The notes beneath the pieces were generated by a model. That model was not told the DNA's origin, ran no database searches, and was given only the letters and a program-made list of their open reading frames with translations. 64,000 nucleotides of DNA from positions 1 through 64,000 of the forward strand of contig NZ_PTJD01000005.1 in assembly GCF_002934625.1 (NCBI RefSeq), given 5' to 3'. The DNA comes from Kineococcus xinjiangensis (GTDB lineage Bacteria; Actinomycetota; Actinomycetes; Actinomycetales; Kineococcaceae). The stretch's first letter is position 1; each line of letters begins with the position of its first letter. Of the stretch, positions 2,437 to 6,332 are shown piece by piece. The translations under genes were made by a program, and so were the position numbers.

Positions 2437-3375
2437 TCAAGGGATCCGGTAGGCGTCGCGCGGGGTGCGGTCGCCGAGGACTTGGTGGGGTCGGCGGGTG
2501 TTGTAGGTATGTCGGAACAGGTTGACCTCTACCGCGAGGGCATCGCCGTCGTCGATGATCGCGCGGTAGAGGTGCTCGTACTTGAGCGTGCCGAAGAAGC
2601 GCTCCACGACCCCGTTGGTCTGCGGGCTCCTGACTCTGGTGCGGACGTGCCGCAGCAGCGGGTCTGGGCCGGTGAACAGCTGCGCGAAGGTGTCTCCGCG
2701 GAAGCACGGCCCGTTGTCCGTGACCAGCGCGATGGGTGCGGGTTGGTCGAGGAGCTCCCCGGTGGCCTCGTCGAGGACCTCGACACTGCCGCGGTCGGCC
2801 CGCAGGTCCTCCAAGTTCAGCTGCCGTTGCGCTGCGTCGACGGCCGCCCGGACGCAGGCGACGGCGTCGCCGCCGCGACTCGTCGTCGTCACGGTGACAG
2901 CGAGGCAGAACTTCGTGGCGTAGTCCACGACCGCGCAGAGCCGCCAGATGCCGCCGGTGGGGGTCTCGAACGAGGTGGGGGTACCTCCCGCTTGCGGGGG
3001 AAAGTCCATCTGCCACAGCCGGTTCCTCACCATGGGCGGGTCGTGGAAGACGCGGCGGCGCACCATCGACCACGCCTTGCGGTCAGCCCGGAAGCCCGAC
3101 GACAGCAGCAGACCGCGTCGCAGCAGCGCCCTGCGGACGGTGGAGGTGGACACCTGCTGGCCGTCAGCACGCATGAGGGCGGCGTTTTTGCGATGGCCCC
3201 ACGCCGGCCAGTCCGCGGCGTCCTTCGCCGCCAGCGCCTCCACGGCGTCCACCTTCGGAGACGGCCAAGGACCGCGGTCAGGATGCTCGGGACCGAGCCG
3301 GCGGTAGCGGGTGAGCCGGCGGCGGTAGGTCCGCTCCGGGATCCCAGCCAGCTTGGCGAACCTCGAGACCGGCAA
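2437..3375 (-). CDS. IS3-like transposase OrfB (DDE integrase catalytic domain)
   Basis: The product is 312 aa from a TTG at 3375. It carries an N-terminal helical part (ERTYRRRLTRYRRLG, then HRKNAALM) and an rve integrase core. The catalytic triad is visible: Asp in LWQMDF, Asp in VTDNGPCF, and Glu in NGVVERFFGTLK, followed by the typical YNTRRPHQ. The frame is open upstream of 3375 (GVLEALRGEAGLPVSRFAK), so in the active element OrfB would be made as an OrfA-OrfB fusion through a -1 frameshift rather than from this TTG. The gene looks intact; the defect lies in orfA. Confidence 0.85.
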   Translation of the reverse strand: MPVSRFAKLAGIPERTYRRRLTRYRRLGPEHPDRGPWPSPKVDAVEALAAKDAADWPAWGHRKNAALMRADGQQVSTSTVRRALLRRGLLLSSGFRADRKAWSMVRRRVFHDPPMVRNRLWQMDFPPQAGGTPTSFETPTGGIWRLCAVVDYATKFCLAVTVTTTSRGGDAVACVRAAVDAAQRQLNLEDLRADRGSVEVLDEATGELLDQPAPIALVTDNGPCFRGDTFAQLFTGPDPLLRHVRTRVRSPQTNGVVERFFGTLKYEHLYRAIIDDGDALAVEVNLFRHTYNTRRPHQVLGDRTPRDAYRIP

Positions 3376-3389
3376 GCCTGCCTCGCCCC

Positions 3390-3780
3390 TCAGGGCCTCG
3401 AGGACTCCGAAGGGCCCCGCGACCCCGGTGAGGTTGCTCCTGTCCCGGAGGTCTCTGGGTAGTGGGTGGCGGTCTGCAGGATCCGCAGCGCGATGGTCGT
3501 CTCAGCCAGGGCGAGCTTGAGCTGCTCGTTCTCCGCCCCGCAACCGCCTCTCGATCATCGTGCCGGGCCCTGGCGGGCCGGGCTTCTTCGCCACCAGCCC
3601 TTCCCGACCCGCGGCGATGAAGCGGTCCGGCCATGCATCGACGGTGATGGCACTGACCCCGTGGCGGCGGGCCGCCTCGGTCATGGACAGCTCCCCGGCC
3701 AGTACTGCCAAGACCACGGAGAGCTGGACGTCGGAGCTGACCAGGCGGGGCCGCGACCGGCTCACGGCACACCGGACCAC
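3390..3780 (-). pseudogene. IS3-like OrfA (HTH plus leucine zipper), frameshifted
   Basis: The first 92 codons from 3780 give a winged-helix/HTH region (LSMTEAARRHGVSAITVDAW) and then run to an early stop at 3502. In another frame the sequence continues as ENEQLKLALAETTIALRILQ, the leucine-zipper tail of OrfA, ending at TGA 3390-3392. The frames join if one base is removed from the CCCC run at 3536-3539, restoring RLRAENEQLK. The element is therefore probably immobile unless this is a sequencing error in a homopolymer. Confidence 0.7.
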
Positions 3781-3832
3781 AAGCTAACTAGGGCTCTGGT
3801 CATGCCACATATCTTGAAGCACCACAACCCAC

Positions 3833-3853
3833 TAGGGTCGAACGCATGTTCGA
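3833..3853 (+). promoter_or_regulatory. Leaderless promoter with a perfect LexA (SOS) box
   Basis: TAGGGT at 3833-3838 is a -10 hexamer, followed by TCGAACGCATGTTCGA at 3838-3853. The latter is an exact palindromic match to the actinobacterial LexA site TCGAAC-N4-GTTCGA. The start codon ATG at 3846 lies inside the box, 7 bases after the -10, so LexA would cover both the transcription start and the start codon. The upstream IS element ends shortly before the expected -35 region. Confidence 0.85.
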
Positions 3854-4253
3854 TCAGCGGCGCTCCGGTCGTGGCGCCGCGCCGCGGGTCCCGGGCGCCC
3901 CGCCGGGGTGGCCGCCGGGGGTCCTCCCGCCGGCGGCCCCGGACTTCGAGGCGAGCGCGGTGGCGTGGCTGCTCGACCAGGCGCCTCCGGAGTACCGGGC
4001 GTACCCGGCGGCGCGCCGGCACCCCGTGCTGCTCGTGTGGCTCGTGGCCCACCACGTCGACGCGCAGGCGGAGGCGGTGCGGCGGGCCGTCGCCACCGCC
4101 CGGGTGGACCTGAGCGACGTGCTGCCCGTGGAGATGGCCCCGCGCGTCTTCGAGCTGCTGGAGCGGGAGGACCTGCGCCTGCGCCGGGTGCGGCGGGCCG
4201 TGGCGCTGCTGCAGGAGGCGCTGCACGGCCGCCGCTACGTGCCGCGACTGTGA
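3846..4253 (+). CDS. Small SOS-regulated protein of unknown function
   Basis: A 135-aa protein with a basic, proline-rich N-terminus (to about residue 35) and a helical, arginine-rich remainder (DFEASAVAWLLDQAPPEYRAYPAARRHP, then VLEREDLRLRRVRRAVALLQEAL-like helices). No signal peptide, membrane segment or catalytic motif is visible. ATG at 3846 has no Shine-Dalgarno; it follows a -10 hexamer by 7 bases, so the message is probably leaderless. The perfect LexA box across the start indicates induction by DNA damage. It is transcribed toward dxs, but the 174-base gap with its own promoter suggests dxs is separate. I do not recognise the family. Plausible roles are in checkpoint control or repair, but nothing in the sequence proves that. 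Confidence 0.8.
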   Translation: MFDQRRSGRGAAPRVPGAPPGWPPGVLPPAAPDFEASAVAWLLDQAPPEYRAYPAARRHPVLLVWLVAHHVDAQAEAVRRAVATARVDLSDVLPVEMAPRVFELLEREDLRLRRVRRAVALLQEALHGRRYVPRL

Positions 4254-4342: not shown

Positions 4343-4348
4343 TACACT
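4343..4348 (+). promoter_or_regulatory. Likely -10 element for dxs
   Basis: TACACT at 4343-4348 lies 80 bases before dxs in an otherwise extremely GC-rich gap. No good -35 is visible, as is common in this phylum. The leader would be about 75 bases. Confidence 0.4.
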
Positions 4349-4427: not shown

Positions 4428-6332
4428 ATGGGGCTGCTCGCATCGATCACCCGACCCCAGGACCTGCGCAAGCTCGACCAGCACGAGCTCGAGCAGCTCG
4501 CCGGGGAGATCCGCGACTTCCTGGTCGCGTCCGTCAGCCGCACCGGCGGCCACCTCGGCCCCAACCTCGGCGTCGTCGAGCTGACGATCGCCCTGCACCG
4601 GGTGTTCGACTCCCCGCGCGACCGCATCGTCTTCGACACCGGTCACCAGTCCTACGTGCACAAGCTGCTCACGGGGCGCCAGGACTTCACGAGGCTGCGC
4701 GCCCGCGGCGGCCTCTCCGGGTACCCCAGCCGCGCCGAGAGCCCCCACGACGTCGTGGAGAACTCCCACGCCTCCACGTCGCTGTCCTGGGCGGACGGCC
4801 TGGCGCGCGCCCACCAGCTGCGCGGCGAGATCGACCGCCACGTCGTCGCCGTCGTCGGTGACGGCGCCCTGACCGGCGGCATGGCCTGGGAGGCGCTGAA
4901 CAACATCGCCGCCGGCGACCGGCCGGTGATCATCGTCGTCAACGACAACGAGCGCTCCTACGCGCCCACCATCGGCGGCCTGGCCTCGCACCTGGCGACG
5001 CTGCGCACCACCAGCGGCTACGAGAAGTTCCTGGAGTGGGGCCGCGGCACCCTGCGCCGCGCGGGCGGTCCCGGGCGCCTCGCCTACGACACCCTCCACG
5101 GGATGAAGAAGGGGATCAAGGACATCGTCGCGCCCCAGGGCCTCTTCGAGGACCTCGGGCTGAAGTACGTCGGCCCCGTCGACGGCCACGACGTCACTGC
5201 GATGGAGCACGCGCTGCGCCGGGCCCGCGCCTACGGCGGCCCCGTCATCGTGCACGCCATCACCCAGAAGGGCCGCGGCTACCGTCCCGCCCTCGACGAC
5301 GACCTGGACCACTTCCACGCCGTCGGCGTCATCGACCCCGAGACGGGGGAGGCGCAGGCGTCCTCCGGCTCCTCGTGGACGAGCGTGTTCGCGGAGGAGA
5401 TGGTCGCGATCGGCGCCGAGCGCGACGACGTCGTGGGCATCACCGCCGCGATGCTCGCCCCCGTCGGCCTCGACGCCTTCGCCCGCGCCCACCCCGACCG
5501 GGTCTTCGACGTCGGCATCGCGGAGCAGCACGCCGTGACCGCCGCGGCCGGCATGGCCGCCGGCGGCCTGCACCCGGTGGTCGCCGTCTACGCCACGTTC
5601 ATCAACCGCGCCTTCGACCAGGTCCTCATGGACGTCGCGCTGCACCGGGCGGGCGTCACCTTCGTCCTCGACCGCGCCGGGGTGACCGGACCCGACGGGG
5701 CCAGCCACCACGGCATGTGGGACATGGCGCTGCTGCGCATCGTGCCCGGCCTGCGCCTGGCCGCCCCCCGCGACGCCACCACCCTGCGCGAGGAGCTGCG
5801 TGAGGCGCTCGACGTCACCGACGCCCCCACGGTCGTCCGCTTCAGCAAGGGCAAGGTGCCCGCCGACCTGCCCGCCATCGCCCGCACCGGCGGCGTCGAC
5901 GTCCTCGAGGGGCCCTCGTGGGCGGAGGGCGACGACGTCCTGCTCGTCGCCGTGGGCTCGATGGTGCCGACCTGCCTCGACGTGGCCGCCCGGCTGCGCG
6001 CGCAGGGCGTCGGCGTCACCGTCGTCGACCCGCGCTGGGTGGTGCCGCTGGACGCCGCGCTCGTCGACCTCGCCCGCCTCCACCGCCACGTGGCGGTCGT
6101 GGAGGACGGCGGGGAGGCCGGGGGCGTCGGCGGCGCGCTGGCAGACCTGCTGCGCCGCGAGGGCGTCACCGCCGACGTGCTGACGTTCGCCCTGCCGCAG
6201 CGCTTCCTCGACCACGGCACCCGCGACGAGGTGCTGGAGGAGGCCGGGCTGGCGCCGCAGGCGGTCTCCCTGCGCATCGTGGAGGCCGTCGCCCGCCTGC
6301 AGGAGGTCGACGCGCCCGCCGGCACGGCCTGA
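4428..6332 (+). CDS. dxs: 1-deoxy-D-xylulose-5-phosphate synthase
   Basis: The 634-aa enzyme condenses pyruvate with glyceraldehyde 3-phosphate, the first step of the MEP isoprenoid pathway. Its length is normal for the family. Residues 1-310 carry the thiamine-diphosphate binding part: [11 protein letters not shown] near residue 70 and [16 protein letters not shown] near 144, the Mg-ThDP motif. The transketolase pyrimidine-binding domain follows with [15 protein letters not shown], and a C-terminal transketolase domain ends the protein. A strong AGGAGG precedes ATG 4428. The gene is single, followed by a hairpin and a convergent gene. ThDP enzymes of this family act as cytosolic homodimers. 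Confidence 0.97.

Follow-up and report, generated by a model that had tools for sequence, protein, structure and literature searches.

A perfect LexA palindrome lies across the start codon of an unnamed 135-aa open reading frame in Kineococcus xinjiangensis. This raises the question of whether LexA controls the gene as part of the SOS response and, if so, what its product does. The window, meaning the whole 64,000-nucleotide stretch of DNA that was analysed, was read directly and positions 3830-3857 are CACTAGGGTCGAACGCATGTTCGATCAG. The features around this site are listed in Table 1. An initial annotation of this DNA had described a perfect palindrome containing the ATG and a -10 hexamer that shares its last base with the box. 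Both descriptions were confirmed, with the shared base at 3838, and the box is the sole perfect actinobacterial LexA box inside the window. It overlaps both the -10 and the ATG and, thus, sits in the promoter of the gene. The spacing of 7 nt between the -10 and the ATG falls within the leaderless pattern of ~6-8 nt, which supports the earlier suggestion that the gene is leaderless, as far as sequence can. A -35 at useful spacing was not found upstream of the hexamer; the closest candidate was TTGAAG (3814-3819), 13 nt from the -10, and the insertion sequence (IS) upstream of the gene may have replaced upstream promoter sequence. The composite of -10, LexA box and start codon, TANNNTCGAACNNRTGTTCGA, is present in 1 copy in the K. 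xinjiangensis genome, and its reversed-control pattern gave 0 matches in 59 relatives and 0 in 297 class members.

Table 1. Features at the LexA-box locus and its neighbours (window positions).
Feature	Position	Strand	Remarks
LexA (SOS) box TCGAACGCATGTTCGA	3838..3853	.	0 mismatches to TCGAACNNNNGTTCGA
-10-like hexamer TAGGGT	3833..3838	+	final T shared with the LexA box as its first base
ATG start	3846..3848	+	at positions 9-11 of the box and 7 nt past the -10; predicted leaderless
135-aa protein (P0001)	3846..4253	+	begun by the in-box ATG; actinomycete family; predicted N-terminal PPGWP segment and alpha-helical hairpin
TACACT	4343..4348	+	candidate -10 of a distinct dxs promoter, suggested by sequence only; not part of the switch
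dxs (1-deoxy-D-xylulose-5-phosphate synthase)	4428..6332	+	TIGR00204, E 2e-181
IS481/IS3-like transposase, C-terminal part	2437..3375	-	rve_3, E 1e-16; NF033577, E 9e-39, below the curated cut-off
IS481-like HTH N-terminal ORF, same element	3502..3780	-	HTH_28, E 9e-10

The palindrome TCGAACNNNNGTTCGA has 5 perfect sites in the 4,617,682-bp genome, while the reversed control had 0 matches across the whole 4.62 Mb. Both regulators of the response are encoded in the genome: lexA (LexA_DNA_bind, E 5e-25; Peptidase_S24, E 1e-32) and recA (RecA, E 4e-141), and the boxes preceding these two genes score 11-12/12. The palindrome at our locus might have arisen by chance, or be the site of another factor, leaving the gene outside the SOS response. 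In favour of this, 39 of the 61 boxes that no -10 overlaps have an RTG at positions 9-11. The central bases that LexA prefers probably account for this frequency, and an ATG inside a box is therefore unremarkable by itself. However, the rarity of perfect boxes in 4.6 Mb, the empty reversed control, the occurrence of this motif at both lexA and recA, and the conservation of the box in unrelated genera make a chance origin very improbable. Taken together, the sequence data strongly support LexA control of the gene and its membership in the SOS regulon.

Other boxes in this genome were also examined. Perfect or one-mismatch boxes are found between lexA and a divergent LysM gene, adjoining nrdR, an arrangement that is the layout of mycobacterial ChiZ/Rv2719c. 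Three boxes fall inside ~85 bp of this region (L001). The LysM gene, which is ChiZ-like (G000:C1:142557-145572, minus strand 930-1529), begins with a GTG within a LexA box (GTGTTCGAAGAG), as the P0001 gene does with its ATG, and its first codons pass through a second perfect box (VFEEFEHPFERV). Another box precedes a cassette encoding a protein that we take to be DUF6504-like, for which Pfam gave no match on the scanned stretch, and a SAV_6107-type HEPN protein (HEPN_SAV_6107). One perfect box (L004, G000:C6:266066-266081) has no convincing target gene and no -10 in register.

Next to the gene on its upstream side is an IS element with a transposase apparently split into two ORFs (2437-3780). 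It has a single near-full-length copy in the genome, and terminal inverted repeats were not recognised. The initial annotation had taken this adjacency as a hint to function. The element is indeed present, but its bearing on function did not hold up. None of the relatives checked has a comparable transposase directly upstream of the homologue, the nearest case being one weak 27% transposase match ~0.6 kb upstream at one locus (L012), and the orthologues still lie beside dxs. The adjacency was therefore dropped as an explanation, and the IS appears to be specific to the K. xinjiangensis genome, incidental and uninformative on function. In most order-level homologues dxs is immediately 3′ of the gene, and in the others the gene follows acnA or is located elsewhere.

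Homologues of P0001 were found in 28/59 relatives and in 153/395 genomes of the class. A first scan of genome contigs with the single protein as query gave no match, and an alignment-based scan gave 249 named stretches in GTDB genomes, from Kineococcus, Dermacoccus, Janibacter, Nocardioides, Marmoricola, Kineosporia, Tetrasphaera and other genera. A tblastn search of P0001 against 72,556 plasmid and 50,697 phage records gave no match.

Of 158 distinct homologues, 83 carry a LexA box that covers or adjoins the promoter. In a first survey, a box scoring at least 11/12 was found no more than 140 bp from the gene start at 37 of 92 loci, compared to 1 such box in the other 411 kb of sequence. Of the named loci, 51/80 had a box scoring at least 10/12; their flanks, scored at the different threshold of at least 11/12, held 4 boxes in 458 kb. 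The box is found in all homologues from the Kineococcus family (f1), in 8/8 of lineage f45 and 11/12 of f35, and in 36/38 named Nocardioidaceae and 6/16 named Intrasporangiaceae, and in none of the f47, f51 and f54 homologues. The presence or absence of the box required 12 changes on a protein tree compared to 52.5 in shuffles; this tree was built with FastTree on few columns, so only the clustering of the box label is usable. The idea that homologues keep the box is thus true for a little over half of them. Since the rest have no box, the family is not under SOS control throughout.

These data could also be explained by an old housekeeping gene, situated between acnA or rpe and dxs, that is bound by LexA and has repeatedly gained and lost SOS control, with its main role in metabolism or growth. 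The many lineages with the gene and without a box, often directly after acnA and before dxs, would fit this explanation, as would the lack of homologues in the plasmid and phage collections searched. On the other hand, the high frequencies in the named Nocardioidaceae and f35 speak against it. So does the retention of the box where the gene is away from dxs (f35, several f45 and some f17), which indicates that the box travels with the gene. We consider this housekeeping explanation rather unlikely.

The geometry of the -10, box and start codon was analysed in 87 distinct box-bearing loci. In 26 of these, a TANNNT ends in the first T of the box, while 0.07 would be expected from a background of 0.075% per position. 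In 68/87, a TANNNT is found 5-8 nt ahead of an in-frame start, as in leaderless genes. The offset between box and start peaks at 8, 28-30 and 36-38 nt, and two layouts occur: the -10 and box with the start within the box (Kineococcus, Janibacter and the window), versus the box followed by a -10 and a leaderless start (Nocardioidaceae). An in-box start with the same offset and -10 spacing as in the window was present in 18/87, and the offset is exactly 8 nt in 18/18 in-box leaderless starts. In-frame in-box starts occur in 16/26 loci where the -10 overlaps the box, compared to 9/61 where it does not (Fisher p 2e-5, which is only a guide because the sequences are related). Three loci of the Kineococcus genus (L006, L007 and L014) keep the -10 and box without an RTG at positions 9-11, and their apparent start is a downstream GTG after a purine-rich Shine-Dalgarno-like stretch. 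Leaderlessness is, therefore, not fixed even within the family. The conserved feature is the placement of LexA over the promoter, and the in-box start is a frequent economy rather than a rule.

Is this architecture peculiar to the P0001 gene? Seven genomes of the genus Kineococcus have a composite match, each of them once and at the homologue of this gene. In other actinomycetes, TANNNTCGAACNNRTGTTCGA heads DUF222 (13E12-type)/HNH genes (two confirmed by Pfam and the rest by eye). Genes recognised by eye as encoding UvrD-like helicases and a DnaE2-like polymerase with a PHP domain also follow it. Many of the proteins encoded after the composite begin with MFD, MFE, VFE or VFD, and those of the surveyed DUF222 genes begin with MFE, VFE or MFD. 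The likeness to P0001 is in the operator; the DUF222/13E12 proteins are unrelated to it, a DUF222 or HNH domain is absent from P0001, and no DUF222 was found among the matches of the alignment members. In Mycobacterium tuberculosis, the 13E12-repeat (DUF222/HNH) genes of the LexA regulon have the same box, and the published extended SOS motif MKWMTCGAAMRYWTGTTCGA has a TG at the same box position (PMC4181829). The lexA gene of M. tuberculosis, a different gene, is experimentally leaderless, with its translation start at its transcription start, and the available part of that source reports no box over the start codon (PMC2897130). ChIP-seq of the LexA regulon in Streptomyces venezuelae found sites near start codons, with recA, lexA, dnaE2, dinP and ruv as core targets (PMC9380542). 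The position near start codons is as here, but the homologues in Streptomyces-like large genomes (f37) have a box in 0/7 cases examined. The DUF222, DnaE2-like and UvrD-like genes, together with MKWMTCGAAMRYWTGTTCGA and the leaderless lexA of M. tuberculosis, make the architecture a recurrent actinobacterial SOS promoter type. The earlier claim of an unusual switch is reduced accordingly. A report of the composite architecture for this gene was not found in the literature searched, a search with subscription journals and RegPrecise outside its scope.

The composite-headed DUF222/HNH, PHP/DnaE2-like and UvrD-like genes are among loci L210-L259, and one genome (G304) has 13 copies of the composite. 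At L240, L241, L242 and L247, the composite is followed by very short ORFs of 8-12 codons (MFE, MFD, VFD and similar), which may be leader peptides or mis-starts.

From these features we infer LexA occupancy, induction by damage, the exact 5′ end of the mRNA and the function of the protein, as follows. With a LexA dimer on 3838-3853, the start codon and the predicted transcription start would both be covered, as would the -10 at its 3′ edge. Coverage from the edge of the -10 to ~+8 would block RNA polymerase and open-complex formation, although how tight this repression is cannot be read from the sequence, and the description of the switch as extremely tight was not retained. After DNA damage, RecA filaments would trigger self-cleavage of LexA and free the operator. 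The first transcribed base would then be the A of the ATG or its immediate 5′ neighbour, giving a leaderless mRNA that begins AUGUUCGA and whose translation starts with Met-Phe-Asp. In such an mRNA, the first codons would also be the right half of the operator. A reading of the palindrome as an RNA hairpin was rejected, since such a transcript carries the right half-site only and an operator hairpin in the mRNA is impossible. The whole is best explained by a true SOS gene that LexA represses, that is probably leaderless and that encodes a small helical protein; we assign this reading a probability of roughly 0.86.

The protein was then compared with known families and folds. The family core in two alignments (A1 and A2) is PPGWPxxVxPPxxxxWxxxAVxWLLDxxPxxYRxxxxxRxxPxxLxxLxxxHVxAxxxxxRxxxxxxR...ExxRL...RxVxLxxxALxGxxxxPRL. 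Searches of Pfam, NCBIfam, PHROG, PADLOC and PDB sequence profiles gave no family for P0001 or for the 28- and 63-member alignments, in agreement with the initial annotation, which had not recognised the family. ThcOx (0.0045), RecX_HTH2 (0.014) and DciA (0.044) were rejected as scattered chance matches of single or few members. Two AlphaFold2 predictions had pLDDT values of 86.6 and 92.3, and the model with the higher value has helices at 34-45, 48-52, 54-58, 60-89 and 95-126. Fold searches (PDB, viral and VIA-align) returned generic helical matches only, with no Foldseek E below 0.4 (best 0.43) and a best Z of 8.7, which does not show that the fold is new. The product is predicted to be a small, mainly helical and soluble protein, probably cytosolic.

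Most likely, the protein acts by protein-protein contacts in the damage response. No result indicates a partner among the replisome, RNA polymerase, RecA and the division machinery. Our best guess, which is tentative, is a modulator of replication or repair that binds DnaB/DnaG, RecA, a polymerase or RNA polymerase through its helical hairpin. This guess draws on the same composite operator at DUF222/HNH, DnaE2-like polymerase and UvrD-like helicase genes, and on a very weak likeness of the helical-hairpin fold to the helicase-binding domain of M. tuberculosis primase (5z51; Z 7.1, Foldseek E 2.8-3.7, below the significance guide for helical proteins). It is weakened by the lack of any significant sequence or fold match in these searches, and regulon membership alone gives no function. 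SOS division inhibitors are commonly lineage-specific, and a small SOS-controlled protein with no assigned function could be one of these, a functional analogue of SulA, YneA, ChiZ or SidA, as had been proposed for this gene. However, ChiZ/Rv2719c-type proteins are LysM proteins, and neither a LysM domain, a related family match nor sequence similarity to them was found for P0001. P0001 is a predicted soluble helical hairpin, and a ChiZ-like gene of the LysM type, divergent from lexA and with LexA boxes, is already present in the genome. The proposal was not supported, and we consider division inhibition improbable.

On balance, we lean slightly towards P0001 representing an unrecognised, widespread family of actinomycete SOS effectors with its own mode of action. 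In this broader proposal, the 21-bp composite unites the -10 and LexA operator with the points where transcription and translation start, it is shared by other SOS genes at their heads, and its LexA half-sites template a Met/Val-Phe-Asp/Glu N-terminus. Judging by the boxes, the SOS regulon would gain a conserved nameless protein family in Nocardioidaceae, Kineococcus, Janibacter and the large-genome f35 family. One species of Kineococcus, K. radiotolerans, is highly resistant to radiation (PMC2587704). With zero control matches, the composite selects candidate LexA-controlled genes with the start codon in the operator from public genomes. As a signature it is simple to search for, and it offers a way to find SOS genes and to correct mis-annotated starts.

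A paralogue of the P0001 gene is also present in the same genome (L033/L045, G000:C20:30057-30511). It is divergent, with 39% identity over the match, and has its own perfect box with an in-frame GTG inside the box and no TANNNT in register with it. The surroundings of this paralogue include a transposase and an EccC/FtsK-like ATPase.
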